Made by a program: the position numbers and the translations under genes | The notes under the pieces: generated by a model | Seen by the model: only the letters and a program-made list of their open reading frames with translations | The model's database searches: none | What the model was told of the DNA's origin: nothing | Shown here: positions 14,306-52,567 of the stretch, one piece after another | Layout of the letters: every line of letters begins with the position of its first letter | Position numbering within the stretch: position 1 is the stretch's first letter | Assembly (NCBI GenBank): GCA_037447655.1 | Contig: JBBHKE010001957.1 | Coordinates: 91,836 to 155,835, forward strand | DNA length: 64,000 nt | Origin: Zygnema cylindricum | Taxonomy: Eukaryota; Streptophyta; Zygnematophyceae; Zygnematales; Zygnemataceae | Direction: 5' to 3'

Positions 14306-17110
14306 TTGTTGTGTGTGGCTTGGTTTCTCACTTGTTGCATTTTGTATAAATCGTGTTCATTATCTCGTCGTTGTTTCCCTCTTCGTTTTATGCCCACCGA
14401 TTGGAACATTTTTAATTTCAGTTCCGGGTCTACTCGTAGTGGTGTAGTTCTCCGCCCATCACTTGTAGACCAAATCGATCTAGCAAGTATATCTAATTTT
14501 CCTATAACTTCGGTTCTGGTATCGAAAACATCCTCTGTCCGTTCTGAACTCACGTCGGTCTCTTCTTTGTCCTCCGTCTCCTCTACGCTATTTGTAGAGG
14601 AAACCAAAGACGAGAGCCTCAAAGGATTCGACTCAGGTTCCCTCTCCTTTTGGTCTTCTCCTGGTCTAATTTTTGTCCCACCTCCATACACACCGGTCAG
14701 TGACATGGCTTCCTCCTCGGAGGGACCCATGAGCAAAATGCAATTCTGCTTTTCAGGGATGAAGGATACAATGTCCTTATCTCATTTCCGCATGTTGTAT
14801 GATACCGAAATGCGCGATTTGGCATTTCGCTATCAGGATCAATTTGATCTTCGTGTAGCATTCTCTCTCTTTGGTCGGTACCTTAGAGGTTCGGCTCTCA
14901 CCCTATATTCCCGCAAGTATAATAGTATACTCGCGATGACAGAATTTTCCTCTCCTTTCGCTGGCACACCCGAGGTCATAGGACAAGTGGATATCCCGTT
15001 TCAGGCCGCTTTTCCCGAGGTTCTGGATGCCCAAGGTAATGTTCTAGTTCCCGCTGTCTCGGAAATTCCTCGGCAATATGCTGTAGCTGCACGTGCTGCT
15101 GTCCCAGCACGATTAGGGATGACGATTCCGTTGCGAGATCCCCTTCCTGTTATGTTTGATCTCCTAGAAGCGGAGTATCGAATGTAAAATCCAGATCAAG
15201 TGAAGGAACTGATGAACTTCGAACGTAAACTGGGTGAAACCGCCCCCGCTCTACGTTCCCGTATGGAGACGTTACGGGAAGCCTTACCGGACTTAATGTC
15301 CGATGCGGAAGCTGTCCAAAAATTTGTTAGACAGTTTCCTGATCACTCAAAACGATTTATCCAAAGTCATCTTACGCAGACATACGACTTGAAATTTACC
15401 TTTGACCAGGCCGCCCAATATGCGGTTGAATATGAGATGCAGTCGTGTTGGTGGGAAGCTCATGATCGATCGGAAGTTGCTTTCCCACTCCCCCCACCAA
15501 GCAACCCATGGCCCAACAATAGGCCTCCGAAAGTGCCTGCCATGGGAGCTCCACCGTTTAACCCTAGAAACATATTATGTTTTAGTTGCGGGGAAACAGG
15601 GCATGAGGCTCGCATGTGTCCAAATAAGACGGCCACATGCACTCACTGTCAGCAGATGGGACATTATTCCCATCGATGCCATATTAAAAATCCAGAGTTC
15701 TCGTATCAAAATCAAATCAAGAATAGGGGTATTCCCGCTCGTTCCGCCAAGCCGGTCACTCCGCCTAAGGAGACCGAGAAAGAATCGACTCCTCCCAGAA
15801 TTTCTAGTAGAGAGAGAGAAAAATTAGAGCTGCAAGCTACTATGGCAGCTATGATGAAGAAACAGTTCGCAGCCTTCATGGCGGAAATGAAGCCGCAGTT
15901 TACAGGAATGGCCCAAACGGTCGTTCATATGCCGACGTTGGCCGGTCGAACCCTTCGGGATTCTACCGTCTAACAACGAGCAGCCACGTTTGACCAAGGC
16001 TCGGCAGATCATAATCGAGTTGGAAAAGTAACAAATTCTCGAATCCCACTATCTTTCGAGAAAGAAACTCTCTCCCCTCTTCCGGAAACGGCTTCAGCTA
16101 TCGTAGCTGAAGCACTTACAATCTTGGATTGAACAATCCAAGATGCTCATCGCGTCAAGGAACGGTTGAGCATCCTATCTTCTATGATGGAGGACGTGCC
16201 TAAGGTCTCTCCTACTTTGGGTGAGGTAACTACAACCGCTGCTTTACGCGCGTTGCAGCTGAATCTCAATCTGTCAGCAGTCCAGCCGATTTCGGTGGAC
16301 AAACGTCGTACATTGGATCCCCACATCAGCTTTCTTGATAACAACCGACACTCATTCACAGTCAATGGTGTCGCACCTTCCCTCCCTCTCATGGACACCG
16401 GAGCAAAACCCATGATCTTAGGATCCGGATTTGCATTGAAGTTTGGCCTCACGGCAGACAAGCTGCAACCCACAACCACACGGTTACTAACTTCAGCTGG
16501 TACCACAGAGCCGGTCCTTGGAATCACCAAGGACCCCCTCGGGTTTCGGTTTCAAACAGAAACCGAAACTGAATTTTCAGAAATTTCTTCACGTGCACTC
16601 GTTACTAAGTGTAGCGATTACGAATGTTTGGTTGGCCATGACGTTATATTTTGGGTTGGTGGCGGTGTAGATATGCATGACCAGACATTCTCTTATAGAC
16701 CCAGTCACTTTCCTGAGCAGAAGATTTGCCTTCCACTTATTTCAGCACGGAAGCCCTTACCTACCATGGCTCATTCAGCGACAACACTTCCTACTTATGC
16801 TGGTATCGACACATTAGATATTGACATCTCTCCATGTATCCACACATTAGATACTGACATCTCTCCATGTATCTTTCCATGTATTTCTCCATGTATTCTC
16901 CCGATCAACAAGAAAACTTCTAATGGGACTTTGAGTTCTCAGGGTGCAGATTACATGCCTATTAGGGAGCATGCTAAGCTGGGTGCTTCGCGTTATTTAC
17001 GGGATTTTTCACTGGATATGGATTCCATGAGGATACTCACTACTGAGGAGACTCTCGATGCGCGTCTTCGCGGTCTTCCGATTTTGTTTGCCAGCTCCAC
17101 TGCAGGCTAA
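14306..17110 (+). pseudogene. Gag-protease polyprotein with three in-frame stops
   Basis: One frame runs 14,306-17,110, with stops at 15,185-15,187, 15,971-15,973 and about 16,130. A likely initiator Met is at 14,705. Gag helices follow (FRMLYDTEMRDLAFRYQD; ALPDLMSDAEAVQKFVRQF), then two CCHC knuckles, CFSCGETGHEARMC and CTHCQQMGHYSHRC (about 15,580-15,676). A retropepsin-like protease has DTGA at 16,394-16,405 and a second conserved segment, CLVGHDVIFW. Near 16,800-16,900 a 33-bp unit encoding HTLDTDISPCI is duplicated. A purine tract with nine G (17,111-17,125) follows the stop, as expected of a polypurine tract. No polymerase follows. Confidence 0.8.
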
Positions 17111-17125: not shown

Positions 17126-18868
17126 AATAAATGGATCTCTCTCTCGGCTTCCCACTCACCTTTTCACAAGTTATCTCATTTTTACATTTTCATATTCATT
17201 TTAGCTTTGTATTATTATTCATTTTGCTTCGAGATGTGCTTTGCTGATGTCTATTCCACGTTTTCTACTCGCCAGCTGGTTAGGTTGCATGTTTCTTGGT
17301 TTGATTAGACACATGCACGACAGCTGTCATGCCGCATTGTGTCGGGACATGTATTTCGTTTATTTGTAGGAATATTACGGGTTGGGGCTACACTCATTCC
17401 GGTTGTGTTAAAATCATGCTTGAATGCAGGATTTATTGTGTACTTACTTCGAAGAGACGTCGGGAATTCCGCTGGTGACACGGAGATACATATTTTCGTG
17501 CGCGATTTGAATGGCGTACGCGGATATCGTTTGGAGGTCGTACGATACAAGATGAACGATCCTCCACGATATTACATTTGTACTTTTATTTTCGCCTGTA
17601 CTTTCACTTAAGTTGGAATTTCGCGATGTACGAATCGAGTGTACGCGGAGCGTTTGTTGGCGCTTCGATTTTTGGTTCACATTGAAGTCGTGAACCCATG
17701 TAGGTTCACGCATACATGTAGTTAGGAAGGGTTTTAATCCGCGGATTGTGAATTTTGTAACGTAGGCATATGGTCCTGGTCGCTTATTGGCCAGAACCCA
17801 AACTTGTCACAAATTGTACAGTGAAATACTCTCACATGATTGGCTAGTTAGCAAATGTCAGAAAGTAGTACTTTGGTTATTTCGTTAGTACTTAGACGAT
17901 TGCGTTAGGTTCGTACTCTCATAATTTGAGAGTACAGGAATTGGTCGAAAAGGATTTAGATTTTTTTGTCTTTTTCCCTTGTCTTTTTCCTTAGTCAAAT
18001 TGTCATTTTTTTTCCCTGCAAGGCTTTTTCTGCCTTAGTTTTTTCAGCGTTTAGCTTTTATCTTTTCTTATTATACTTTCATTGTAAGACCTACAAGTTA
18101 ATTCACTCGGTTTCGGCCGGAGTCCGCACGGTTTCCCTTCAACAACCTCTTTTAATGTGGATTCTGCCTGCTTTCTCAGGCTGTTTTCTAAACCTTTGTG
18201 GATGCCTTTGGTGAATTAGTGTTTGACTTTTCTTGTCTGATTTTTGTTGCCTTGGTTGAAGTTTGCTGGTGTTTTGTTAGAATCCGGTTATCTCGGATTC
18301 TCTATAGCTTCTAATCGCTGGCTTTCTATTATCATTTTTTTTGCAATTGGTTACTAGTGTGTCAAAATCCGGTTTTCTCAGATTTTGTGCAGATTTTTAA
18401 CGTTGCTTACTTGTATTTTCTTGTTGCTATTTTTACTCGTTTGTTAGAATTCGGTAATCTCGGATTCTTTACGTATTTTCAGTGCTTGCTTTCTTGTTGT
18501 AATTTTCTGCAATCAGCGTGCCGAGATCCGGTTATCTCGGATTCAATGCAGATTTTTATTGTTGTTTTCTTGCATTTTTCTGGTTTTGTTTTCTTTATTT
18601 ATAATCCTAGACCTAACTCCTGTAAGGAATACCCCAGACCGTGGAGCCTAGTGGCTACCCATCGGCTTAGTAATAAATGGATCTCTCTCTCGGCTTCCCA
18701 CTCACCTTTTCACATGTTATCTCATTTTTACATTTTCATATTCATTTTAGCTTTGTATTATTATTCATTTTGCTTCGAGATGTGCTTTGCTGTTGTCTAT
18801 TCCACGTTTTCTACTCGCCAGCTGGTTAGGTTGCATGTTTCTTGGTTTGATTAGACACATGCACGACA
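17126..18868 (+). repeat. Right LTR complex (X, Y, X) of the gag-protease element
   Basis: X (17,126-17,322) directly follows the polypurine tract. After two bases (GC) comes Y (17,325-18,671), then X again (18,672-18,868). The X-GC-Y joint contains the palindrome GACAGCTGTC (17,319-17,328), the joined ends of an LTR. Confidence 0.75.
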
Positions 18869-19606
18869 GCCACTCTTTCCTCCCATTTGGATCTTAATTG
18901 TATTCACCCGAACGAGAATCATCCCTACCTCTGAGTTCCATATCCATCTTGAGTCCAGCAAGTCCTGCACACGGTTGACTATGTTCTCGAACTCATCAGG
19001 TAACTTTATCAGTAAACAGTTAACCTTTTCTTTTTCACTAAAATATTTTCCCGCACTCTCTAGCTCTATGAAGAGTGTAGCAAGCTCATTGCAAAAATCC
19101 AGCATCTTCCCCCCTTTGTATACATACTCCTTAACTTTTTGATCAGCCAACTGTTGTTGCTGAATTGTACCACTTCGGTACATCTCTATGAGAGCCATCC
19201 AAAGATCGGATGCCCTTCTACCTGCAAATGAAGACATGCAAGACCTTGAGTGATATGGCGTAGGATGAAGTGCTTTGCCGCCATATTGTTCAAGTCCCAG
19301 GTTTCAGTATCATTCTCCTCGTTCCTCGAAATAGGTGACATAAATGCCAAACCAGTTGTTATTAGTGTGGTCGTCTCCTTCTCCTTTCCTTTGTCCACCA
19401 CCTCTCCTTCCTTTGTTTCCTCCGTTGGAGGTGGATCCTCTTTCCTGGTGAATTTGTTTCCTCCAAACCCTGGAGGGATTCCAAGACTTAATGGACACCC
19501 CAACCTTCCACTCACTATCCACTAAAACCATATTTTGCATAGAGCTCCTATCATCATACTTTCCCAGTATATGAAGCCAGTTCCATTAAAGATTGGTACC
19601 CTAGAG
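18869..19606 (-). pseudogene. Copia-A gag
   Basis: Minus-strand copia gag, decayed. Frame pieces include FILRHITQGLACLHLQVE, ASDLWMALIEMYRSGTIQQ, KVKEYVYKGGKMLDFCNELA and VNCLLIKLPDEFENIV, all with direct counterparts in copia-B at 25,588-26,187. Here the CAG codon that became TAG in copia-B is intact. The gene is cut at its 3' side by the element at 11,593-18,868 and resumes at 11,592 with the zinc knuckle. Confidence 0.8.
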
Positions 19607-28500: not shown

Positions 28501-29823
28501 TGCTCGGTTGTCATATTTCCCTCCGTCTACATACTTCTCAATCTGGCAGCAGTGGAAGACATAGAAGTGCACTTGATGGACATCAAGAAAGCCTTTTTGC
28601 ATGGAGAATTGGAAGAGGAGATCTTCATGCGACAACCCGAAGGTTTTGTGGAGGAAGGAGAGGAGAGTAAGGTATGCCGGCTGATTAAATCTCTTTATGG
28701 TTTGAAACAGGCGCCTCGATAGTGGAATAAGAAGCTTGATGAGTTTCTTACTGGTCTGGGATATATCCGGATCAGCTAAGATCACTCAATCTATGTTTTT
28801 TGTCGATGAGGAAGGTTTTATATTTATTGCAATTTATGTTGATGACTTGCTTGTTTTAAGTAAATCAATGGAAAAAATTAATAAACTGAAAACCGATCTT
28901 AAGGGGAGATTTGAAATGAAAGATATGGGAGAAGCAAGATATATTTTGGGAATTCAAGTAGAGAGAGACCGAAAAAGAAAAATTATAAGATTGACTCAAA
29001 AGGAAGCAATAGGGAACATGCTTGAAAAATTTTAGATAGATAAAGCTAATAGTTGTACAACTCCAATGGAGTTGAAAAAGGGAAGTGAGGGGAGTGAGGA
29101 AGGAGTCATATTCTTAGACGAGGAATTATCTCATGAAGAACAGAAGTTCATGCAGACTATTACTTACAGGCAAGTAGTGGGATGTCTAATCTATTTTATG
29201 AATTGTACCCGGCCGGATTTAGCTGCAGTTGTAGGAGTGCTGAGTAGAAGTCTAAATGCTCCCAAAAGAGAGATTGGGTGGCAGCTAAGAGAGTCATTAG
29301 ATATTTGATAGGAACTAGGGATCTATGGTTGCATTTGGGTGGGGAGAATACTGACATCACTACTTGGAGTGATGCCAGTTATGGTGATGCTCCGATGAGG
29401 AGATGCACTTCTAGATATGTATTATATGTGGATGATGGGACTTGCTGTTGGAGTAGCAAACAGCAAAAAGTTATTGCTTAGTCCACCATGGAGGCTGAGT
29501 ATATGGCCTCTTGCTCTGCTGTAAAAGAATTGATGTGGGTCAAGTCTTTGCTTCGTGATCTTGGTCACCTTAAGAGTGGTGTGTAGATTTTTTTTTGTGA
29601 TAATCAGGTAGCAATCGCTATTTCTTCCAATCCTAAACATCATTTTAAAGCCTAACACATGGACATTAGACTGAGCTTTGTTAGAGAGAAAGTAGAAAAC
29701 AAAATAATTAGTTTAGAGTACCGACCAAATAGTGAGATGGTAGTAAATATGATGACCAATTCTGTGCCTTCCCCTAAGCTAATTTTCTACAGGGAGAAGT
29801 TTGGTCTGAAATTAAAGATTGAC
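25588..29823 (+). pseudogene. Copia-B gag-pol polyprotein, decayed
   Basis: Domains in order. Gag is at 25,588-26,187, with a CAG-to-TAG stop at 25,951 relative to copia-A. The zinc knuckle (about 26,340-26,420) is destroyed by frameshift. The protease has WIVDSGASMHMC (about 26,620-26,650). GAG-pre-integrase and integrase (26,953-28,046) have MWHKRLGHVN, CSGCAHGK, TDIWGPA and SDNCGEY. RT is at 28,316-29,035, with CKWVFKLK, KSLYGLKQAPR and the catalytic YVDD at about 28,834. RNase H (about 29,280-29,700) has STMEAEYMASCS and a DNQVAIAIS segment. At least ten stops or frameshifts are visible, several explained by CAG-to-TAG changes. Confidence 0.9.
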
Positions 29824-37311: not shown

Positions 37312-40300
37312 GGCAAGAAGTAGTGGCCTAAGAAGAAGAGTCTTAGGTGCCCGAGGAAGCAGTCTCCTTTGATTTTGCATTAAACATAGAGCAGTTCCTC
37401 AAGGGAAAGATGCCTACGCTTGTCATAGTTGAGATTCCTCCCAAAAAATAAGAGAAGCAACCATCCACTCCACCTCCTCCGGTTTTTTCTCCCGACAACT
37501 TCCCTACGTTGTCCAAGGCCGCCACAGCTAAGGCTACAGAGAAGGAGGAACAACAAGCTAGAGCTCCTCAATCCCGCAGGAAGGTTTTGGCACATAAGAA
37601 AACGATTATTGGCTCACTTCTCGAAGTGGTACCGTATACCACGTCTAAAGCTCCAATAGTGGAGACATACGTAGATCCTCAAATCTTGTCACATCGTAGC
37701 AGGCCAGGTCGCAAGGAGATTTTATTCTGTATAATATCCATGAGTTAAAGGTAAAGAAGGAGCTTGTGCAACCTGTTGCCAGCAGCGACCGAGCCGGGAT
37801 CATACGCCCAGTGGGAGGTTTAGTTGAAATCCTAAGTAGTTCGTCTAAGAGCGGTTCTTCAACCTCCATCTGGGAGCAAGAGGGGAGGCCATCCACTTCG
37901 CGTTAGCAGCCCACCCTATCTCGAGACACTTAAACTAGTAAACAGTCTAGAGGCCGGGTAACTTCTCGGGCTCAGGCAGGTGAAGAGACAAGCAAGTTGA
38001 AATTGCCAGAAAACTAAGAGAGATTTTCGGTTCGACCATAGGGATAGCAAAGGCCGATTTGCTCCCCTAGCCGAAGAGGAGCCTTTCTTTCCTTCAACCT
38101 TAGTTTTGCCAACCATTTCTCCCTGAACACTAGTGGTTTTACCTTGGATTATGGAGTACGTGACCTACGGACCCTATGGTACCCGGTTTAGGGATTGTTA
38201 ATCTCTCGCGTGTGGTGAGCAGTACCCACGAACTGGTGGATATCCTGCGATCGCAAAGTCAGGCTACGGCGGGGGCCGGACCCATCATGATAGACTAGGA
38301 TGCTCTGGAACAAGAAAGGAAGAAAGCGTTGGAAGAGGATCTGCTCCTCATACGAGAGGCTAAATGAAGATCATGGGGGATCCTTAGTGGACAGTTATCT
38401 CCTTCTTTTAGGACAGGTGCATTGGTAGGAGGACAACCTGTGGAACAGGCTACCCCTCTTGCCCCGCAAGATCTGAAGGCCTCACGGGAACTTGGACAAA
38501 AATCTCCTCTTTAGCGAGATAGGGAGGACACAACAAGGGCTAAAAAAAAGGGGTTGGGTGTAGATCCACCGAGTTATCGGGTAGCCGCGTCCAGTGAGCT
38601 TCTTACTTTTGTCTCGGTGGCTGGATCTTCTTTAGTGGAGGCCATGGTAAAACTACAACCCGACAGGAAACTCTACATTTCCCTCAGATTGACCACTCCT
38701 CCTCCATCACCATCTTACGCTTCCTCTCCTTCCCGTTCCTTCTACCCAGCTAGAGCAGTCCGTGGGTCTCTGGATCTTCTTGTTTTTCCTTACAAATACA
38801 CCCCTAACTCACCTCCTCACTGGCAATCCCCATCCTCCAGTGGCGAAACTCCTCCTCTCGAGGATTTCCAAAGGCAGCACAAGAGACAAACATTGTTCGA
38901 AGACAAACACCCTCTCCTCCAAGCTTGCAGTCGTCCCCTTCTCCGTCGCCATCCATCTCCGGGGGCCTCGACCTCGCTTGCACATTCCATCGATGGAGAT
39001 AGTGTTAAGGGGAGAGCAAGCCTCTCCAAAATATAGAGGAGGAGGTGATCTAACATCTTCTTCGAGAGCAGGACCTTCCTCAGTGAGAGAAGGAATCAGT
39101 GCTGTTACTACAACCCTTCTTATTGGAGAGGGACTGGTTCAGATCCCGAGATTCATGACCCCGGAGCAGTCTCACCGGCTTAGTTTGTCAGTCCCACAGG
39201 AGAGGCCTCACCACTATTCATCAGTACTGTGGAGGAGGAAAAGAAAATGGGGGACGTCCGGATCTTCACAGGGGATAACTTTGGGATTGCTTTTTCTGAT
39301 TTTGAAATGTTGTGGAAATCTTTCACACAATCCGAAACTAACAAATACAGGGGGGGAGCCATCCCACTGGATTTTGAAAGAACTCTTTTTCCAATGATGG
39401 TCAATTATTTAGCGGGGGGGGCATTGGTCGATTATAAGGAGAGTCAACACTTGTTGATGGCTCCCAGTATAAAAATATCAGATTCAGACTTGGACATCGA
39501 TGTTCTTTAGGCATCCGCCGACTTGGCCCCCGCAGCCACAGCTCCTATCACAGCCACATTCAGTATGGACATAAATTTGCAGGCCCAAATTAGGCCTATG
39601 TTAATCATCTCCAGGCCGTTTAAGCCGCCAAGGCCGCCACTCGGATGATTGCCAACCCAACTCCTTGCACGAATCTCCTGTACGACTGGAGACTCCTTTA
39701 TATAGAAAGGAACGAAACAGCAATCAAGGAGTTCACCGACTTCCGATGTTTGAAGAATGAAATCCCTCAGACTTTGTTAAACCGACTCTCTAGCCTTTGT
39801 CAAAACACTAAATTGTCCACCATTTATACTCTAGCAATGGCCACCAAATACTATATGGCTGTTCGAAATTCATTCGGGCCAACAGGGCAAGTAGCTTTGG
39901 ACAATTGGAGTGCCAGTCAATATATACACGACAGGAATCCTACTGTGCAAGAAATTTCATTGGCGGCAATGAAGTTAAATGATCATTTTGTCAACAGCGA
40001 AGCAAGAGAAAAGGCTGTTACTAGAAAAGCAAGAGCCAAATTTGCACGTTTTGTAGAGGAATCCTCTCTCTGCCAAAAAGAACAAACTAAACTTCAAGAT
40101 TTGCGGAAGCTCAAAGAAAAACAAGAAGTTGAAACTAGACCCGAACCCGCAATGGGAGCCGATGAAAATGATTATCTTTACAACTGCGTGAACAACAACC
40201 AAACTTGTCATGGGTGGAAAACATGCCCCAGGAAACTGAACCCAAAACTCTTGATCAAGCAAAAAGAGTTTGAAAAGGAACGTGTAGAAAAAACCCAAAG

Positions 40301-41340
40301 GCAGCAAGAACGCAAGCAGAGAAGCGGAGGAGGGGACCGCTCGCCCGTCACTAGAGACACTTATAAACCTACTCCACTCTCTAAGACGACTAAGATGTCT
40401 CAATTCATTTGAGACAAATCCGACTTCCTAAATTTGATGACGCCTGGATCTCAAATGAGCTAAGGGGGAAGTATACGTTTGAGGGGTCGAAATGTGAGGC
40501 TTGTGGTTTCATAGGGCACAAAGAAGGGCAATGTTTCCGGAAGAACAGGGTCCCAAAAGACATGTTGTAATACGGGTTGTTCACAGGCGAAGGGGAAACA
40601 AGCGTTAATCCTCTACCACTGCAACTTTTATATCCACAAGAACGTCGATCTCTTGGTGAACCGTGACCCAAAACGCTGACAGAGGAACATATCATCTAGC
40701 AACAGAGCACTCAATTGGCCGCCTTCGCAGCAAAATTGGCTGCTCTTTGATTATGATCGAATGCTCGCACCCCCCAACCTTTGACGCTTGTCAAAAACTG
40801 TAGAAACAAAAAGAAGAACAGTTGCAAATGCTGGTAAAGTTAGAACAACAGTCCATGGTGGGTGCTGATGATGATGACATAATGGGGTGGGATATGGAGC
40901 CTCCAAAGGCTCATCATGCTCGGACATTTCTGTCCGAAGCTTGGAACGTTAAGTTAAAGGCAGGTTAAGCAAAACAACCACGCCACTGATGTCCTCTCAA
41001 CTGAGGGTGACAGTGACAGGAAGGGAATGGGCCGGGATCATCCCTCCTCGGCTCCTTTCTCCTCAAAGTAAAACCTTGGGGAAAAGATCTTCAACCACTG
41101 GCCAGATCAAGTTTTCGACCGTTGGGAAAGACCAGCAGTGCGTGACTCGGCTAGGTTGGGCAGGGGGGGGGGGAGAAGGCGACGTTCACATTTCATGGCA
41201 AAGCTTCCCCCCTTCTTGGCGGTCTTGCTTGCGTGGCAGCTGCCTTTCGACTCCGTCGAGTAAGCAAAGGGTTTGAAAGCACTGTCTGGGCGGAAGATTT
41301 GGAGGGGTGGGAGGGGTGGGGCGAAACCAAAAACTGGGGC
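37188..41340 (+). pseudogene. D1: gag region of the methyltransferase-carrying gypsy family
   Basis: A decayed gag in broken frames. The longest clean part is 39,645-40,412 (255 codons), with a helical core (LLYDWRLLYIERNETAIKEF; LAAMKLNDHF) and a charged Lys/Glu tail. A CCHC knuckle, CEACGFIGHKEGQC, lies at 40,493-40,534. The N-terminal half is Pro/Ser/Arg-rich (38,554-39,036). Every section has a counterpart in D2 in the same order (for example the HRSRPGRKE segment at about 37,690 against 42,206). No methyltransferase or polymerase follows before the D2 copy, so D1 is a truncated tandem copy or a second element fragment. Cellular role: RNA packaging of the element. Confidence 0.72.
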
Positions 41341-41989
41341 AGAGGTTGGGGGCATTTTAAAAAGGGATTTTAAACGTGGTTGGGTAGTAGGGAATGCAGT
41401 ATCATCATTGGGCCCGAGGAACGGCAGTCAGGCATAGGGGCGGTGGCACTCCCAACGAGTATATCCATCAAGCAAAATAAACCCTGATCCTAGCTCTCCT
41501 CCCATTCCTTCTCATGCACTGAAACTGGGTACTTCTGAGTTGAAAATGGAGTTGAGTGTGTGGAAGTAACAATTGACAGTTTCAGAGCCGGAGGACCCAA
41601 AGGGTGTTGATTTGAGATAATAGGTGACCTTGAGGAAGAAGAAGAAGCACCAGCTGTTGCTATAATATTCAGATTACAAAAGAGGATACTCTCACGGAAT
41701 CCACAAAAAGGACTGACTTCACAATAAAGCCTCAAGCAAACCAGACACACAATAGATTTGCAAATTTTCCACAATATAAACACTATAACAAAGAAACCAC
41801 ACGCAGACTTTCCCTGATTTTTGCCATAAGATCACAATGATCTTGCAATTCAAAAATACACAAAAACTGCTTTACAGTTTTTCATTCACAGAATTCTTAA
41901 CTCCAAAATATTCTAAGTCCTACATATACAAAGTGAACCTACAACTGATCTACACCGTACTACAACTACTCTTCTGAACATTTCCCTTC
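41341..41989. other. Sequence between D1 and D2, unassigned
   Basis: Does not align with either gag copy. The minus strand from about 41,783 to 41,490 encodes a short open segment (GASSSSSRSPIISNQHPLG) that resembles the start of a copia gag, so a copia fragment including part of an LTR is possible. No firm boundaries. Confidence 0.35.
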
Positions 41990-42062
41990 TTTTTCTGAAG
42001 TCGCCAGGACCTTTGCCGAGGAAAGAAAGGAGTCGAGGGCACAAGCTCAAGAAAGAAATAGA

Positions 42063-45000
42063 GTGTCGCCCAGGTCTCGACCAAAGAGACTAGCTCAGAG
42101 GGAGCCCCATGTGGGTCCTCTTCCAAAGATTGGGCTTCACGCCATATATAAAATGCCCGGGGGCGAGATCCAGATTGACCCCGCAGTTTTGACGGATCCA
42201 CATCGCCCGGGTCGTAAGGAACCCCTTGCCGTTCACGACCTCCATGAGCTCAAGGTGAAGAAGGAGTTGGTAGAATGAGTGGCTCAGACAGATTAAGTCA
42301 GAATAGTAAGATTCGCGGGTGGGGTGGTTGAGATTTTGAGCAGTTCTTCGGAGGGCAGCTCTTCAGAATGGGTGAAGGACCAGTCCCAGAGAGCCCCCTA
42401 TTCTCGCCCTCCCCCATCTTCCTCTCAGAACACCGCCGCCAGCAAACCCTCCACGGGGCGTACCTCTTCGTGGCCTCGTAGAGAAAAAAGGGGTATTGGG
42501 AGGGAAACACGAGATCCATTCAGGGGAAGTTGGTTTGACCACCGCAACAGCAAGGGGAGATTTGCACGGCTTCCCAAGGAGGAGACATCCCCAACTCCTG
42601 TGTTCCCATCAACCGAGAAACCTGCTCCTGCACCACCTCGTGACCGCCCTTCTAGAGGGATTTGGCGATCAAAACCAATTGATCCCGAGGTTCCGGGTAA
42701 GAGTCCATAAGATTTGCGCAAGGGATGGTGTTGGACCAGACCTAATGATCCCGAAATTCCGGGGGTAGAGATAACGGATCTTACGAAAATAGTGGAAAAA
42801 GCCAAGGAACTAGTGGAGTTTCTAAAATCCCAAGGACAGGCTACGGCGGGGGCCGAACCTGTCACAGTAGATTGGGAGGCCTTAGAGGAAGGGAGGCGAA
42901 AGGCTTGAGAATAGGAATTAAAGATCATTAGGGGAGCTCAGCGTAAGACGAGTGGGATTCTTAGCGAGAAGATTCCTCCTACACAAAAGATAGTGCCGCA
43001 TTCAAAAGCCCCAGCAGCGAGGATTCTTTTCTTGCCAGTACTCACCCTAAAATGCCTTCTTTGAAGCTAAGCCAAGAGCCTCTCTTACCGCGGAAAGGAG
43101 AGGAGGACCAAAGACTTAATTTGGAGGGTTTGGGTGCTAATTTACCTTCTGGAACCGCTTCGGCTCTTCGGGGAGAGACTACCTTTGTCTCGGTCGAGGT
43201 GTTTACTGCCGTAGAGGCTTTACTGGGGTTATGACTTGACGAGGTGATTCACAACCCCTTCAGATATCCAACCCCTCCTCCCACTTCTCCCAAAAAATCC
43301 TTAGAGCTCCCATCTTCGGCTCCTCCACCTTATTCATCTCACTCCGCAGAACCCACCACCTATCCCCGGGACTGTCCAGATCCCTCTCCATCACCATCCA
43401 TCTCTCCCGCAAAAGCTGTCTATGGGTCGCCTGGTCTCTGTGTTACCCTACAAATACGACGTACGCGCCTATTCCCCTCCTCACCGACGCTCCCCCTCCT
43501 CTAGCTCTGGAACTTCACCTCCCAAGGCCTCCAGGAGGCAAACAAGGAGACAGACACCTTTCCCCATAAGGGCTCAACCATCTCCGTCTCCATCCCTTTC
43601 ACTATCTCCGCCACCAACAATCCCCAAGAAGCTTGTGAATAAGGCGCGTTTCCACATCCCATCGGTGGTAACTGTTCTCAAGGATCCGCAATATTCTCCT
43701 AGAAATAGAGGAGTAGTGGGGAACATCCAACCTCAAACCATCTTTTCTAGCGCTGGAACTTCCTCAGTGAGAGGGGGATCCACACCACAAGGGGCTGCAC
43801 CTTCTAGCAGAGAAGGACCCAGTTCCGATACCGAGTAAGAGGATACGAGAGTCATCTTGCCCACTCAGTTTGTCAACCCAACAGGGCCTTCCTCTTCCCA
43901 TTTCACAAACTCTGCCGAAGAAGAAAAGGAAATGGGGGATATACGGATCTTTATCGTAGAGAGCTTGGGGATTACATTTTTATAATTTGAGTTGTTGTGG
44001 AAATCTTTCACCCAATCTGAAATCAACAAGTACCGGGAGGGGGGCATTCTGTATGACTTTGAAACAACACTCTTCCCAATGATGGTCAACTACCTTTCTC
44101 GAGGGGCGTTGGCGGATTACAAGGAGCATCAACCTTTATTGATGGCTCCCAATGTCTAGATCTCAGATCTAGCCCTTCATGCTGAAGTTTTACAAGCGAA
44201 GATAGACCTGGCTGCGGGGGCTGCGACCTCTGTGTTGGCTAACTTTACGCCGGAAATGAAACTCCAGGCAGAGGGAAGAGTTTATGCTAACCAGCAGCAA
44301 GCCATTTAGGGGGCCCAGGCAGCAACCTTCATGGTTGCTAATCCCAACACTTGTACAACTCTGCTGAATATCTGGAGACTCCTCTACACATAGAGGATAA
44401 AGTCCGCAATCAAGGAATTCACAGAATTTTGATGTTTGAAGAACGAGACTCTATAGACTCTCTTCAATCGACTCTTAAGCCTTTGTCAGAAAAATAAACT
44501 GTCAACGATTGACCTTCCAACAATGGCAACTAAATACTTCATCGCTGTCTGTAATCCATTTGGACGGACAGGGCAGATTGCTCTAGATAAATGGATTGCC
44601 AGACAGTCCATTTAGAACATCAATCCCTCTGCAAAGGAAATCTCACTGGTGGTAATGAAATTGTATGACCATTTCGTCCACAGTGAAGCATGGGAGAAGG
44701 CCGTGACTGGCAAAGCCTGAGCAAATTGGGTCGGATTCGCAGGGGAGACCTCCTTGAATGAGGAGGAAGAGGCTGAACTTCAAGCTTTGCGGAAGCTTAA
44801 AAGAAAGGAAGTAGTTGACAATGGGTCACAATGAGCTTTGGGAGCAGATGAGCGAGTATTTCTCTATAATTGCTTGAATTGTTTGCAACCAAGTCATGGG
44901 TGGAAGCATTGCACGAGGAAACTCAAACCGGTACTCGCTTTGAAACTTAAGTAATGGGAGAAAAGACGGGCATACAGGGCACTGAGAAAGCAAGAAAGGC

Positions 45001-45946
45001 TCAAGGGAGGAAGGGGCGAGGACAAGACACCTATAACTAAGGAGACCAACCGTCCAACCCCACAGAGCGAAACTTCTAAGATGTCCCAATCACAATTGCG
45101 ACAAATCAAACTTCCAAAGTTTGATGACGCTCAAAACTCCAACGAAATCTAGAGTAAATATACCACTGAGGGCTCAAAGTGCGAAGCATGTGGATTTCTC
45201 GGGCACAAGGAAAGGCAATGTTTTCTGGAAAATAGAGTACCCAAAGAAATGATGCAATTCACTTTGTTTACTGGAGAAAGAGAAACAACCTTTAACACTC
45301 TCCCTCTCCAACTTCTTTACCCATGGGGGCGTCAACTTCTACCCACGGCGGAGAAACCTGAGCGAGCCCGGGCTACTCCAGCCAAGCTTACGCCGGAGAT
45401 CATCATACAGCAGCAGAGTCAGCAGCAGGCGGCTATAGCTGCATAGTTGGCTGCCCTCCGCTTGAAAGTTTCTCAGCGGCCTGCTCCTATCATTACATTG
45501 CAACGACTCCACAAAGAGAAACGAAGTTGTTACAGAAGCTGGTGGAGCTGGAGCTTCAAGGAACAGCGGGTGCCAACGATGACGACCTATTGGGTTGGGA
45601 TTTGGAACCCCCAAATGCCCACCATGCCCAAACCTTCCTGTTCAGGGATTCGAATGTTGGGGTAGGAGACAACCGCCGCCAACTACGAAATTCCAAATCA
45701 ATGCAACGGCAGGACAGACAGAAAATGGGTCAGAGGGATCACAACCAGATAGCTACCGTACCCTTGTCATTCACTCCAAAGGCCGTAATCGTGAACAACG
45801 ACATCGAACTAGGACTCAAACCCAAACAATCGCCTTCTCTCCCTTCCAAACCTAAGTTGCCTCCGAGTTTCGAAAATGAGAAGAACGAGAAACAGCAGCA
45901 AGAGAAGGATTCATTGGAACGAGAGAAGAAGGACAATGAGGACTGA
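42063..45946 (+). pseudogene. D2 gag
   Basis: Frame-broken gag aligned with D1. It has Pro/Ser-rich N-terminal parts (42,324-42,710 and 43,244-43,838) and a helical central part (about 43,900-44,830, many stops). The CCHC knuckle CEACGFLGHKERQC lies at about 45,180-45,221. A downstream charged region (45,527-45,946) includes DDDLLGWDLEPPNAHHAQTF, with a counterpart in D1 at about 40,870-40,930. The gag is unusually long for a Ty3/gypsy element (nearly 4 kb). It would bind and package element RNA. Confidence 0.7.
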
Positions 45947-46789
45947 TTTGAGAAATATATGGCATAACAACCGGAGAATGACACACCCACAACACCACCA
46001 GTCGCAGAATCCGGCTCCGAAAGTGAGAAAGAAAGGACAAGTTCAGGATTTGCAGAAACTGGATTCATCCCCATCTTCATCGAATGCCACTCTCCCAACC
46101 TCCAAGCCGACTGTCATGTTGTTCCGGCACCTCATGCCATACGCTCTCACCCATGTAAAGACCCTAGCATCCTCCCACAACCTGCCCGAAGATATCCTCA
46201 TTCAGGCATTGGGAGACGAGATTCGATCTGGAAAGGCCGAAGTCAACAGGACCACTCCGCCAACCGCAGTCTTTATGTCAACCGATCCAAAAACCCCTAT
46301 AGTGGATAGGGACTACAAATCCTTATCAGTGGCTCTTAACCTAAACAGGACCGGAAACTTTCTAAGTTTGGTTGATCCGTCCCCATCCTGTTCAATCCCC
46401 AAGGAAATGGGACTCACCGAAATTCTGGCTGGATATGGGAGCGTAGCAGCAAAGGCGCCAGACTCCTGGGAATGGCACCAGCAGGTTCTTTATTTTGCAA
46501 CCCTGGAACCATTCCTGCTGAACTGAAGGTTTGGTAAGGAGGCTGTTTCTTGGGCAGAACTGTTGGCTCGATATCGCCGAAAAAATCAAGCAGTTCCCCA
46601 CTTCCAAGCGGTGGGAAGAGGAATACAAGAAAAGATTACTTCAGGTGGCAAAACTCCGGCGGGGAGTGGATAAGACTTTCTCGACCTTGACAATGACGGA
46701 AGTCGGTCCTACAAAAATGTCAGATGCTTCCAAACCCAAGACGAGTAACGAGGAATTCAATCGACAAGTGGTGTCCTTGGCAGTTCCCG
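45947..46789 (+). pseudogene. D2 linker between gag and methyltransferase, unknown
   Basis: Open in one frame to 46,526 (segments HLMPYALTHVKTLASSHNLP and YKSLSVALNLNRTGNFLSL), then in another frame from 46,531 (KRWEEEYKKRLLQVAKLRRG). A protease would be expected here in a gypsy polyprotein, but no DTG/DSG triad is visible. It could be the N-terminal part of the captured methyltransferase or a degraded protease. Confidence 0.4.
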
Positions 46790-47755
46790 ATTCCGCATTG
46801 CATATTTTATCTCTATTTTTGGGAAATAGTTCCGATTTGGAGGCAGTGTTGAAAACCGAATATATGGAAGAAGAGAACACAACCGTGGAAATATCACTTG
46901 AGGCCCGCGCTGTCAGCGAGCATCGCCTCCACCAGCTTCATCACTTATATCCTCAACAGCTTCTAGTGACAGCCTTTTCCAAAGCTCACCGAAGTCTTCC
47001 CCAAAATGTCGAAACCATTATGGAGCCCCACCTAGCCAGTTTGGGAAGAGTGGATTTGGTAATGGCAGGCTGGCTTTGTTAGAGATACTCCCTAGCGGGA
47101 CAAGGAAAAGGGCATCAAGATTGCCGAAGTGGAACATTTTACAGGATGATTGAATTGATCACGTGGATTCAGTAGCTTGAAGACACACCAGTGGGGTACG
47201 TTTGGGAAAATGTACACCCGGGGGATGATAAAAGAAAACAGGTTGCTGACAGCTGGAATCACGTAACCCGGATTATAGGAGCTCCCTTGGTTTTCGGCGC
47301 CGCACAAATGGGATCTCGGGCACACCGAGTAAGGGCGTATTGTACCAATATGATCCCGCTTCCAATCCTCCGGAAATTGTTGGACAACCAAAGACGTGAT
47401 CCGCAGAATTCGGTGCAGCAAATCCTTGGGAAGGGCAGGATGGCCACCCCTGTGATGTGACACAACCGCTCCCCTTTCTTCCGGTCTAATCAGTCGGGAC
47501 TACCGCGTAAAACCCTCTCGACTTTAGTTTCTTTCCCCCACAGTCACGCTTATCGGAAAGGAGCAGCGGGAATGATTTTCAACACTACAACAAGAATCTG
47601 GACAACACCAACAATTGCGGAACGGGAAGAAGCGATGGGATTTCAAAAAGGCACAACGGCAACACCACGTATTTCAGATCTACAGAGGTGCAGCCTGATT
47701 GGACAAAGTATGGATTTGAATTCAATCACATGGTTGCTCAAGCATGCACAAGCCT
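46790..47755 (+). pseudogene. C5-cytosine DNA methyltransferase domain inside D2
   Basis: Would transfer a methyl group from S-adenosylmethionine to carbon 5 of cytosine in DNA. One frame holds the class motifs in canonical order. Motif I is at about 46,798 (LHILSLFLGN, degraded from the usual FSGIGG) and motif II is VEISLEAR. Motif IV is at 47,053-47,110 (DLVMAGWLC, stop, RYSLAGQGKG); the catalytic Cys is 47,077-47,079, but the preceding Pro is Leu. Motif VI ENV is at 47,206-47,214. Motif VIII is near 47,300-47,349 (MGSRAHRVRAYCTN). Motif IX-X region is PTIAEREEAMGFQKGTT then CSLIGQSMDLNSITWLL (about 47,615-47,745). Stops at 47,080, 47,173 and 47,458 inactivate it. The unrearranged order argues against DRM. 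It lies between gag and RT. I cannot assign it to a DNMT subfamily by eye. Confidence 0.85.
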
Positions 47756-48055
47756 TTTCAACTCTCCAGTCCCCCGAATCACAGGCTATTTACTTTCAAG
47801 CTCCTCAATTGTTAGCAATGCAGACAACTTTGCATCTTGAGGGTGGGGAGAGAAAAGAGAAGAAGAAAACTTCACATTTCATCACCGCAGGTTTTCCCAA
47901 TGGGGGAGGGCGCCGGCTCAAATTGCTACGGCTTAGCGGAGGTTGTTAGCAGTAGCGTCCTAGCCGGAGGGGTAGAGGCAGATCCATCGGTAGGATTGGA
48001 ATTTGACATTAACCTCTGGGGTAGACCGCCGGAGGCCTAGGCTGCCGTAGAGCTT

Positions 48056-49060
48056 GTGAAAATGGATAGGACCCTTGGGGAGCAATTGGATCCTCAGCAA
48101 AAGGCGCGGCTCTCCAAGTTATTAGCCAAAAACAAACAGGTGTTGTCATGGTCAGAAACAGATGTCGGTATCTACAAAAGAACCCCTTTTCGAATCGATT
48201 TGATCGATGAGACGACGACTGTTTGTCAGAAGCAATATCCTCTCAGCTTCAAAGAGAAGGAATTCATCACGGCTAAAGTCCAAATTTTGTTGGAAGCTAG
48301 ATTGATTCAAGAAAGTACAGTTCTTCATGGGTTCGCTTTTTCAACAGTTCTCCTGCCCAAGAAAAGCTCGTTCAGAAATACTGTTGATTTCCGGATGTGT
48401 GGAGATTATCGCATGCTGAACACGGTAACCATCTCTGACCGGTATCCAATGCCGACCCCGAAAGAAGTATTCGACTCCCTTGCGGGCGCCACTATCTACT
48501 CCACTCTGGACATGAAAAATGGTTTCCACCAGATTGCCATGGAACCGAAGCACAGGGAGAGAACCAGATTTTGGGCAGGGTCCACACTTTATGAATGGAT
48601 TTACATGCCATTCGGGCTCAAGAATGCACCGGCCTAATTCCAACGGGCAATGGACGAAGCGCTCCGAGGAATCGATTGTGCCCGGTGCTACATTGATGAT
48701 GTTATTATATTCTCCAAAACTTTTGAGGAACACTTGGAGCATGTTCAGATTGTTCTCAAGGTACTCGAAGGAGCGGGCTGGAAATGCCACCCGGGCAAAG
48801 GGATCTTTAGAGTACAAAAAATCATTTACCTTGGATATGAGGTGACTCCCGAGACTGTGGGTCTTCACATGGTGAAGGTGGCATCCCTTCACGCTCTCCC
48901 CCCACCGCAAGACGTCTCGGCCCTTTGCACCTTTCTGGGTCTAGCAAACTACTATCTGCAATTTATCCCCGAATTTAGTAGACACGCTCAGCCCCTCACC
49001 CAACTATTGCGGAAGGACGAAGAGTGGCAGTGGGCCAAAAAACAACAGATCTCCTTTTGT
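48056..49060 (+). pseudogene. D2 reverse transcriptase
   Basis: Copies element RNA into cDNA. Seen in order: LIQESTVLHGFAFSTVLLPK, then DFRMCGDYRMLNTVTISDRY, then STLDMKNGFHQIAMEPKHR, YEWIYMPFGLKNAPA, the catalytic YIDDVIIFSKTFEEHLEHV (about 48,690-48,745) and the thumb/connection FLGLANYYLQFIPEFS. One in-frame TAA (48,635-48,637) replaces a Lys codon that is intact in D3, and a frameshift follows near 49,045. Typical Ty3/gypsy RT. Confidence 0.92.
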
Positions 49061-49545
49061 TCTTGAAAGATGCTCTGAAGCAACACCCCATGCTACAGAT
49101 GCCAGATAACCAGAGGCCTTTCCTCCTTTACACTGATTGGAGCAGGTTTGGATTGGGAGCAATTTTGGCTCAAGTTGATGATGCGGGAGCTGAATATGTG
49201 GTGGCTTATGCTAGGCGGAGCTACAACAGAGCAGATCGGAATTATAGCAGTTACCATGGAGAACTACTCGCAGCGGTGTGGGCAATCTTGCATTTCCGGC
49301 CTTATTTGTACGGTGTTCATTTAACCCTGATTACTGATCACCAACCACAAAAATGGATCATGGAAAATAGTAAGTTGAATGGCAAACTCGCTAGATGGGT
49401 TCTTATCTTGCAGAAATATGATTTTGACATTGTTCACCGGGCCGGGGAAATCCATGGGAATGCCGATTGACTTAGCCAGAATCCGGACCCTTCTACTCTG
49501 GATTTGACTGGGGCTTGACATGATGAGGATCTTGAAATCAATATG
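49024..49545 (+). pseudogene. D2 RNase H
   Basis: Degrades the RNA strand of the replication hybrid. Seen: LLYTDWSRFGLGAILAQ (first catalytic Asp; the usual TDAS is TDWS), then SSYHGELLAAVWAILHFRPY (catalytic Glu), then LITDHQPQKWIMENSKLNG (catalytic Asp), and the closing FDIVHRAGEIHGNAD with a TGA just before the usual LSQNP. Different frame from the RT because of the frameshift before it. Confidence 0.88.
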
Positions 49546-49849
49546 GAGATCATCCGAGCATCCTCCGCCTTTATCTAGCTTCCCCAATCTCGAGGGGAAC
49601 TATTAACGTTCTCGGCAGACGTGGAGGGGTAGGCACGTATAAGGGCCGGACCTAAGGATATTTAAAACAATCCCGAGGATCTCAAATCTATCTAGCAGGG
49701 GGCTCCCCTTGCCCACTTGACGGGAATTTAATTATCTCGAGAGCAAACCCAAATGGTGGCGTACGATGAGGACAGAGGAGTTCTTCTCCGCAAATGGTTA
49801 GATGGCACAAGGAAAGTGATTCCTCCTCCCTCAGACTGAGAAAATCTGA

Positions 49850-50155
49850 TTTCCAATCTCCATCAGCAATGTGGACACTTAGAGCAAAAACGGACCACTT
49901 CTCTAGTAACAGGCTCTTATTAGTAGCACGGGTTGAGGACCCAAGTTAACCGAATTGTGCACCTTTGCTCCTCATGCGATCGAGTAAAGGTAGCTTTTGA
50001 CAAAAAGGGCGGGACGGAGCTTCATTCGCTTCCTATCTGGAGAATGTTTTATCGGTGGTCGCTGGACCTTTTGGGACCTCTTATTACCAACAGGCCAAGG
50101 AACTGCTTCGTTCTAGTTATGATAGAACATTTTATTGTCTTTTTGGAAAGCTTTC
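49850..50155 (+). pseudogene. D2 integrase, N-terminal part only
   Basis: HHCC zinc domain (LHQQCGHLEQKRT, two stops, then HLCSSCDRVK, 49,860-49,985), then the start of the catalytic core (WSLDLLGPLITNRPRNCFVL and MIEHF, 50,055-50,145). It ends at about 50,155, where repetitive sequence begins. Confidence 0.8.
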
Positions 50156-50622
50156 AGTCTCAGAGCAGCGCAGCTGCTTTACAGACAAAGCAGCGCAGCT
50201 GCTATACAAACAGAGCAGCGCAGCTGCTATACAACAGAGCAGCGCAGCTGCTATACAGCAGAGCAGCTGCTATACAGCAGAGCAGCTGCTATACAGCAGA
50301 GCAGCGCTGCTATACAGCAGAGCAGCGCAGCAGCAGAGTAGCGCAGCAGCGAAGCTGCAACACAGACAGGACAACGCAACCACGATTATATTTGATATGG
50401 TCCGTACGGACAACGCAGCGTCTGATATTCTTAATGTGATTCTGTACAGGATAGAGCAACTGCGATAGATACGATTCTAGGTAGCTTAGTGATAGCTCAG
50501 TGGTAGCTTAGTGATAGCTCAGTGGTAGCTTAGTGATAGCTCAATGGTAGCTTGACAGATTAGTGGTAGCTTGGTGGTTTGATGTACCTCTCAAGTACAC
50601 TGGTGTTGCCAGTTCAACACAA
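50155..50622 (+). repeat. Repeat-rich insertion between D2 and D3
   Basis: Tandem units of CAGAGCAGCGCAGCTGCTATA (21-mer and shorter variants; 50,160-50,350), then a second series GGTAGCTTAGTGATAGCTCA (50,478-50,560). The second resembles, inverted, the CTACCACTAAGC units in the copia-C LTR (about 5,490-5,520), so this may be a relative of that LTR. Open frames here (AAIQQSS repeats) are repeat translations, not genes. Confidence 0.6.
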
Positions 50623-51190
50623 ATGTACACCCGGGGGATGATAAAAGAAAACAGGTTGCTGACAGCTGGAATCACGTAACCCGGATTATAGGAGCTCCCT
50701 TGGTTTTCGGCGCCGCACAAATGGGATCTCGGGCACACCGAGTAAGGGCGTATTGTACCAATATGATCCCGCTTCCAATCCTCCGGAAATTGTTGGACAA
50801 CCAAAGACGTGATCCGCAGAATTCGGTGCAGCAAATCCTTGGGAAGGGCAGGATGGCCACCCCTGTGATGTGACACAACCGCTCCCCTTTCTTCCGGTCT
50901 AATCAGTCGGGACTACCGCGTAAAACCCTCTCGACTTTAGTTTCTTTCCCCCACAGTCACGCTTATCGGAAAGGAGCAGCGGGAATGATTTTCAACACTA
51001 CAACAAGAATCTGGACAACACCAACAATTGAGGAACGGGAAGAAGCGATGGGATTTCAAAAACGCACAACGGCAGCACCAGGTATTTTAGACCTACAGAG
51101 GTGCAGCCTGATTGGACAAAGTATGGATTTGAATTCAATCACATGGTTGCTCAAGCATGCACAAGCCTTTTCAACTCTCCAGTCCCCGTA
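50622..51190 (+). pseudogene. D3 methyltransferase C-terminal half
   Basis: Contains motif VIII (MGSRAHRVRAYCTN) and the motif IX-X region (PTIEEREEAMGFQKRTT; CSLIGQSMDLNSITWLL). It shares with D2 the TGA after GRMATPVM (50,871-50,873), so the copies descend from an already interrupted source or the locus was duplicated. The N-terminal half with the catalytic Cys is absent. Confidence 0.82.
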
Positions 51191-51469
51191 ATCACGAACT
51201 ATTTACCTTCAAGCTCCTCAGTTGTTAGTGATGCATGCAACTTTGCAGCTTGAGGGGGGGGAGAGAAAAGAGAAGAAGAAAAATTTACATTTCATCACCG
51301 CAGGTTTTCCCAATGGGGGAGGGCGGCGGCTCAGATTGCTACGGCTTACCGGAGGTTGTTAGCAGTAGCGTCCTAGTAGGAGGGGTAGAGGCAGATCCAC
51401 CGGTAGTATTGGAATTCGACATTAACCTCTGGGTAGACCGCCGGAGGCGTGGGCTGTCGTAGAGCCTGG

Positions 51470-52567
<1,098 letters not shown>

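Follow-up and report, generated by a model that had tools for sequence, protein, structure and literature searches.

Cytosine methylation is the mark by which plants silence transposons. Sarre et al. (2025, PMC12344493) again place some DNMT3 members in retrotransposons of streptophytes and dinoflagellates. De Mendoza et al. (2018, PMC5890265) described KnitGypsy-Dnmt3, in which gypsy domains are combined with a DIRS-like repeat arrangement. In yeast, they saw no methylation with the KnitGypsy-Dnmt3 domain in isolation, a result that they call inconclusive; for the SymbioDIRS enzymes, CG methylation was shown in yeast. Morozov et al. (2019, PMC6338049), who treated adenine and cytosine methylases together, state that green algae too have such retrotransposons and that land plants such as tracheophytes lack transposons with DNA methylases. 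Passages of PMC9033089 and PMC6453930 contain nothing on retrotransposon DNA methyltransferases (DNMTs).

The window analysed here, a stretch of 64,000 nucleotides from Zygnema cylindricum, holds an element of the known KnitGypsy-Dnmt3 kind, and the genome is very rich in that kind. As in KnitGypsy-Dnmt3 of Klebsormidium nitens (PMC5890265), a Dnmt3-type DNMT without DRM-like rearrangement is part of the gypsy Pol ORF, and A-coding-B-A-B repeats in DIRS order are found in both. The Zygnema genome has 123 scored domains, in three or more DNMT-bearing sets, and their likeness to KnitGypsy-Dnmt3 is drawn from the published description; a K. nitens name was absent from the best 120 of 1347 matches in a protein search with a related DNMT domain (that of protein P0002, see below). 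By the same source (PMC5890265), SymbioDIRS-Dnmt3 and SymbioLINE-Dnmt of Symbiodinium are also retrotransposons with a C5 DNMT in very many copies, and the SymbioDIRS ones share the A-coding-B-A-B repeats. However, they belong to the tyrosine recombinase and LINE classes, whereas gypsy-type reverse transcriptase (RT), RNase H and an integrase fragment are present here. DIRS elements with Dam-like methyltransferases likewise join a retrotransposon to a methyltransferase, but that enzyme acts on adenine and is described as structurally unrelated (PMC5890265).

The C5-cytosine methyltransferase domain of the window (Dnmt3-type) lies at 46756-47850 on the plus strand and is read in the frame of 46522 with its stops masked. 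The initial annotation had seen C5 methyltransferase motifs in one frame on the element's strand at 46790-47755. The domain is indeed there and reads in one frame as described, although the match extends slightly beyond these limits. A degraded motif I, VEISLEAR, a GW-C loop with AGQGKG, ENV, GSRAHRVR, EREEAMGF and GQSMDLN follow one another in linear order, and we take these to be the C5 methyltransferase motifs of those names. Three in-frame stops are found at 47080, 47173 and 47458; the catalytic Cys is kept, but a stop comes after it. When searched as single open pieces, the domain gave no methylase match in Pfam. With X at the stops, PF00145 was matched at E=0.0013 and TIGR00675 (dcm) at 1.2e-6, both under the curated cut-off, phrog_116 (DNA methyltransferase) was matched at 7.3e-8, and DNMT3A was the top PDB chain (E=0.083). 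Significance comes from P0002, which matches the masked-stop 349-aa window stretch at E=1.9e-85 with 45% identity and 99% coverage. P0002 is the single protein found with the read-through window frame; it comes from a 4594-bp metagenome contig and carries PF00145 (1.7e-11) and then RVT_1 (5.8e-22) in a single frame. A protein search with the 326-aa domain by itself returned nothing at E<=0.001, where a length filter perhaps hid longer polyproteins, and viral_contigs scans with the domain and with P0002 gave pattern matches and no relative. We regard it as virtually certain that this stretch is the DNMT domain of a Ty3/gypsy-type retrotransposon present in many copies, the one in the window being dead. 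The explanation as a whole, namely a gypsy-borne Dnmt3-type enzyme with a cDNA-methylating role, is given a probability of about 0.6.

The decayed gypsy-type element around the domain extends over 41971-50172, and all its parts lie on the plus strand. Homology to the 5' leader of another copy (L029) begins at about 41971, and the integrase match ends near 50172, where a minisatellite cuts the 3' end. The gag region (43739-45323) contains many stops and shares 66% identity with that of another related element at 39054-40636, on the same strand. A CCHC zinc-knuckle region, CEACGFLGHKERQC (45153-45443), was recognised in translation and adjoins gag in other loci too. Between the zinc knuckle and the protease, comparison with other copies revealed conservation of a stretch (45813-46361) to which no role is assigned; its median dN/dS among copies is 0.49, as against 0.95 and 0.72 in the shifted frames. 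At 46361-46410, the site of the missing protease core, about 200 bp are absent in alignment with three other copies, and protease queries found nothing at this site of the window. The initial annotation had placed the DNMT between gag and RT; this position stands, but it is more exactly between protease and RT, with the protease core deleted here. Downstream of the DNMT, the first part of RT (PF00078, 48041-48634) is matched at E=1.5e-10 and shows 65% identity to the RT of P0002. It is in a different frame from the DNMT, and a frame break precedes RT. RNase H (PF17917 and PF17919, 48982-49467) follows at E=4.4e-33, and an integrase fragment (49762-50172) was found by tblastn with the integrase stretch of a public relative, P0016, at 34.5% identity. 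Minisatellite-like repeats, read directly from the sequence at 50165-50600, end the integrase. With the three DNMT stops, the missing protease core, the RT frame break and the truncated integrase, the window copy is dead.

A second partial copy with the C-terminal half of the DNMT and RT is located at 50621-52139 (plus strand) and is 94% identical to 47208-48728. Between 47208-47617 and 50621-51030, identity is 100% over about 410 bases; beyond, it is 87-98% per 100 bases, about 92%. Either gene conversion or an assembly artefact accounts for the fully identical stretch. The step in identity adjoins the minisatellite and a poly-C tract (about 52140-52400).

The genome (352,776,454 bases in 2689 contigs, 352.8 Mb) was searched for further copies. 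A 378-bp DNMT piece gave 40 scored matches of 457 candidates, at 81-100% identity, and tblastn found the DNMT in all 20 loci fetched around such matches. On the same strand upstream of the DNMT, gag was present in 15 of the 20 loci (the gag of the neighbouring copy served as query), with a protease between in 17; downstream, RT was present in 18, RNase H in 15 and integrase in 14. The order gag, protease, RT, RNase H, integrase, which is that of Ty3/gypsy elements, was found among the copies. Conversely, an RT piece gave 40 scored matches of 562 candidates. Half of them (20) lie within 1.5 kb of a listed DNMT match; the other 20 were read 200-650 bp upstream (450 bp), and 15 of these hold at least part of the DNMT. 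None was seen in the 450 bp read upstream of the remaining five copies (L063, L064, L065, L067 and L073). Altogether, a DNMT lies directly upstream in 35 of the 40 RT copies scored for the window's subfamily. Since the RT query came from the window's own subfamily, this test is uninformative on other gypsy families.

These counts bear on the idea that the DNMT is a chance neighbour, i.e. a host methyltransferase pseudogene hit or adjoined by a gypsy insertion. A domain that is decayed and weakly recognised in the window alone would fit such an origin. However, RT follows the DNMT in most DNMT loci, the DNMT precedes RT in most RT copies, and the two are fused in open frames of this genome and in P0002. 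The idea retains next to no probability, and a host pseudogene is ruled out by the genome-wide association of DNMT and RT. The initial annotation had held that family copies consistently lacking the domain would speak for a chance neighbour; they carry it in the proportion given above, and together with the significant match to P0002 this supports its claim that the gypsy element encodes a C5 methyltransferase of its own. When the genome was searched with a DNMT3A fragment, 518 candidates yielded 150 scored matches (best 52 bits), none of which stands out as a host DNMT3 gene.

Searched with PF00145, the genome yielded 782 candidates, of which 123 were scored; every one of the 123 exceeds the cut-off, and the best E is 1.1e-11. 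In 85 of them the part of the domain that is matched is stop-free; 21 of the 85 lie in frames of at least 500 aa and 6 in frames of at least 1000 aa. Seventeen of the 123 loci were read, picked mainly for open frames, and the remaining matches are likely retrotransposon copies as well. The initial annotation had suggested looking for intact copies. One open polyprotein has the order gag-CCHC-protease-DNMT-RT-RNase H-integrase in a single frame, with two CCHC knuckles; it measures 2089 aa in the piece read, whose end cuts the frame, and 2395 in the search table. The window's own subfamily is represented by a 982-aa open frame with DNMT-RT-RNase H. Three DNMT-bearing sets are distinguished in the tree (the window's set, a Glu-Cys-Gln set and L044), and at least two of them were read with open frames through the DNMT domain. 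Two open pairs are nearly identical over the stretch aligned (L033/L039, 99.8%; L034/L035, 100%), which makes recent transposition or segmental duplication likely. In the window's set, on the other hand, none of the 21 aligned copies, that of the window among them, has a DNMT free of stops and frameshifting indels.

As the window copy has lost its own ends, the repeat layout was read from other copies. One copy (L031, L027 and L032) shows the full A-coding-B-A-B arrangement: repeat A, about 1170 bp long, occupies the left end and recurs at the right end, where it is enclosed by two copies of the 285-bp repeat B. The right end B-A-B also occurs in L013 with L055, and B is followed directly by A in 8 of 20 loci. 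A plain pair of identical LTRs is rejected by this layout, so that the element counts as gypsy because of its genes rather than its ends. Between the left and right A of the full copy, identity is 89.7% over an aligned piece of 768 columns and 92.3% over one of 404, and this divergence indicates that the copy is old. It begins with TGTC, finishes with GACA and is flanked on both sides by ATGG, while a related repeat in the window (29640-29700) holds an empty site with a single ATGG. In this one copy, the 4-bp ATGG is a target-site duplication, as left by a DDE integrase.

The type of the enzyme was assessed with a profile of ten public relatives ranked against solved structures. DNMT3A (1.9e-21) and DNMT3B (9.4e-21) came first, followed by 4onj (1.5e-11), a 'DNA methyltransferase' chain that we take to be tobacco DRM, and HaeIII (3.1e-9); lower ranks went to DRM2 (2.3e-8), HhaI (1.9e-7), DNMT2 (1.3e-5) and chains named DNMT1 (0.85). 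The DNMT1 type is ruled out by its rank, as is the DNMT2-type RNA methyltransferase, and the DRM type is ruled out by the linear motif order and by DRM chains scoring under DNMT3A. A structural model of P0002, built from 27 sequences, has a mean pLDDT of 69.9 over 685 residues; over its DNMT (residues 31-360), pLDDT is 77 to 98 per ten-residue block, mostly above 90. In a Foldseek search against the PDB, the best 50 of 219 matches (E<=0.001) were DNMT3 chains or complexes, with TM up to 0.84 by target, and DNMT3A was matched at 4.3e-19 with a TM of 0.80 by target. Animal and plant DNMT3 are the best profile and fold match among solved structures, yet the element's enzyme differs from them in being embedded in Pol, and Pfam finds only PF00145 and RVT_1 in P0002, with no ADD or PWWP. 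Two results speak against a Dnmt3 label. C5 enzymes of phages and giant viruses also match the model (best phage E=1.3e-16, TM 0.55 by target), and the nearest free-standing proteins among the best 120 of 1347 sequence matches are for the most part PF00145 proteins without a name, presumed prokaryotic, with no host DNMT3 among them. Dnmt3-type is accordingly the best label among solved structures, and as a name it expresses structural likeness, not descent from a host Dnmt3.

The same rankings bear on whether the enzyme might methylate the element's RNA or its tRNA primer instead of DNA. tRNA is a substrate of DNMT2-like C5 enzymes, and the DNMT here is translated with Pol, near the genomic RNA. 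RNA methylation was also raised by the 2018 authors for LINE-borne DNMTs (PMC5890265). However, DNMT3A ranks far above DNMT2 in the profile and the best 50 PDB fold matches are DNMT3 chains or complexes, and an RNA target appears quite improbable.

Selection on the domain was estimated among the decayed copies in the window frame. The median dN/dS of the DNMT is 0.35 (210 pairs of 21 copies), against 0.80 and 1.09 in frames +1 and +2; RT gave 0.24 (177 pairs; shifted frames 1.01 and 1.13) and RNase H 0.25 (134 pairs; shifted frames 0.67 and 1.27). Open copies gave DNMT values of 0.25 and 0.35, from 9 of 10 and 8 of 55 pairs, respectively; the other pairs were dropped for dS <=0.02, undefined values or too few sites. 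As dN/dS is well below 1, the DNMT was kept for its protein while the elements were active. Hence the DNMT was under purifying selection, a little less strictly than RT. The KnitGypsy-Dnmt3 domain is also reported to be under purifying selection, with Ka/Ks below 0.2 (PMC5890265), compared with the medians of 0.25-0.35 here.

In part of the lineage, the domain might be structural or bind nucleic acid without catalysis. The residue before the catalytic Cys raises this question: Pro-Cys-Gln is found in 6 of the 17 loci read, while Glu-Cys-Gln is found in 10 (L033, L039, L041-L043 and L045-L049), and Glu also replaces Pro in 8 of 47 public proteins (P0012, P0024, P0026, P0030, P0032, P0034, P0039 and P0042). 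The change appears on several branches and in both pol layouts described below, so it may have arisen more than once, and judged from sequence the Glu might lower activity. Nevertheless, GWxCQ is kept in 16 of the 17 loci, EN in 16 and AHRxR in 14, some pieces being cut short, and selection acts on the protein as described above. A non-catalytic domain is thus considered improbable, if slightly less so than an RNA target.

The preferred role is methylation of the element's own cDNA. Because the DNMT adjoins RT in one polyprotein, it would be made in step with RT, as part of Pol, and should enter the particle. There it could methylate the new cDNA de novo, before or at integration, most likely at CG by analogy with other retrotransposon DNMTs. 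A methylated new copy would resemble host chromatin and might evade defences against unmethylated DNA; alternatively, the gain could be that the new copy is held quiet so that the host survives. A Dnmt3-like fold and the Cys, EN and HRxR residues, kept in most loci read, are compatible with such activity, and we put this role at slightly under an even chance. Genomic parasites would here have taken over the chemistry used by hosts to silence them.

The mutation pattern counts against this role. In the decayed copies, C-to-T changes are slightly in excess at CG (0.190) over CHG (0.171) and CHH (0.156), while G-to-A changes show no excess (0.166 at CG vs 0.171 elsewhere); the footprint at CG is faint and confined to one strand. 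The CpG observed/expected ratio, 0.87 in the rest of the window, falls to 0.64 in the window element and to 0.58-0.76 in 20 copies, but it is 0.88 in an open copy of another subfamily. This CpG deficit would also suit self-restraint, by which the enzyme marks all element copies, the host silences them and copy number stays tolerable. More than 100 scored DNMT matches and the death of every aligned copy of the window's set point the same way. On the other hand, the CG transition excess is small, and open, nearly identical copies exist, so silencing is not complete. Self-restraint is held to be unlikely, though it is the most credible of the alternatives to cDNA methylation.

Relatives were collected by searching with the P0002 domain, for which 7986 candidates were scored and the best 120 of 1347 matches were listed. 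P0002 to P0046 and P0048, where the rows were long enough to include, group together in the trees. Named sources are Marchantia polymorpha (P0008, P0011, P0014 and P0033), Calypogeia fissa (P0005), Closterium (P0012, P0036 and P0043) and Cymbomonas tetramitiformis (P0029), the others being in part metagenomic. Some members, e.g. P0004, P0006, P0009 and P0019, have no retrotransposon domain in the Pfam list. Compared with the Closterium, Marchantia and Calypogeia proteins in the list of best matches, those of L033, L044 and L050 reach no more than about 26-44% identity, so none of the listed proteins is a close copy.

Two pol layouts were recognised. In layout A, that of the window, RT comes after the DNMT (P0002, P0012, P0036, P0037, P0040 and P0043) or a protease motif lies ahead of it (nine proteins; by Pfam in P0003 and P0012). 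In layout B, RNase H is ahead of the DNMT (10 proteins, Pfam lists) or integrase after it (11 proteins), nine of the latter with a PHD finger (P0016, P0020, P0027, P0030, P0032, P0034, P0035, P0039 and P0046). The layout B order was obtained by Pfam scan in P0015, P0016, P0020, P0021, P0026, P0027, P0029, P0035 and P0042, except that the DNMT of P0026 was placed separately. A G-patch follows the DNMT in P0026.

Layout B rows form one clade with 99-100% support, and a single branch (100/99.8) sets all retrotransposon rows apart from the DNMT3A row and from 12 free-standing PF00145 proteins, most of which are unnamed and presumed prokaryotic. That row, made of printed pieces, is the single long DNMT3 row, and plant DNMT3 is absent. 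With this single DNMT3 row, the sequence tree favours, without proving, a common origin of the retrotransposon DNMTs. An RT tree of 12 rows, in which Ty3 falls inside the group, does not tell one RT ancestor of the two layouts from several. Fragments with too little domain, P0047 and later P0048 were left out of the trees, and P0038 (long branch) was dropped from the last one, together with nine rows that were redundant or close to duplicates (L034, L039, L045, P0004, P0009, P0014, P0030, P0031 and P0033). P0047 and P0049-P0055 are free-standing PF00145 proteins with two DNMT matches each and are among the best listed relatives outside the retrotransposon set; P0055 has intein-like Hint domains.

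We tentatively suggest, at rather less than even odds, that the green-plant retrotransposon DNMTs form a single lineage that goes back to one capture, has resided in gypsy elements from a time before the prasinophyte/streptophyte split, was carried into liverworts and moved once within pol from protease/RT to RNase H/integrase, where it often received a PHD finger. If true, the methyltransferase would be an ancient and lasting part of the element and not a recent theft in one alga. The reach into liverworts was unexpected from PMC6338049. Judged from their sequences, the Marchantia and Calypogeia proteins speak against absence from land plants as far as liverworts are concerned; these partial proteins show no RT. 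In a literature searched mostly without subscription journals, we found no published report of liverwort, Closterium or prasinophyte members or of the two pol positions. If the Marchantia genes are parts of working elements, a genetic model would make a transposon's gain from DNA methylation directly testable.

Elsewhere in the window, gag and an aspartic protease (PLMDTGAKP) of the second, Glu-Cys-Gln DNMT-bearing subfamily lie at 14309-16807 and are 61% identical to an open copy elsewhere in the genome; its DNMT was not found downstream within the window. Direct repeats of 199 bp, 99% identical, at 17126-17324 and 18672-18870 flank a 1.35-kb stretch, which is 97.6% identical to 11593-12956. 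This stretch with its repeats looks like a young insertion.
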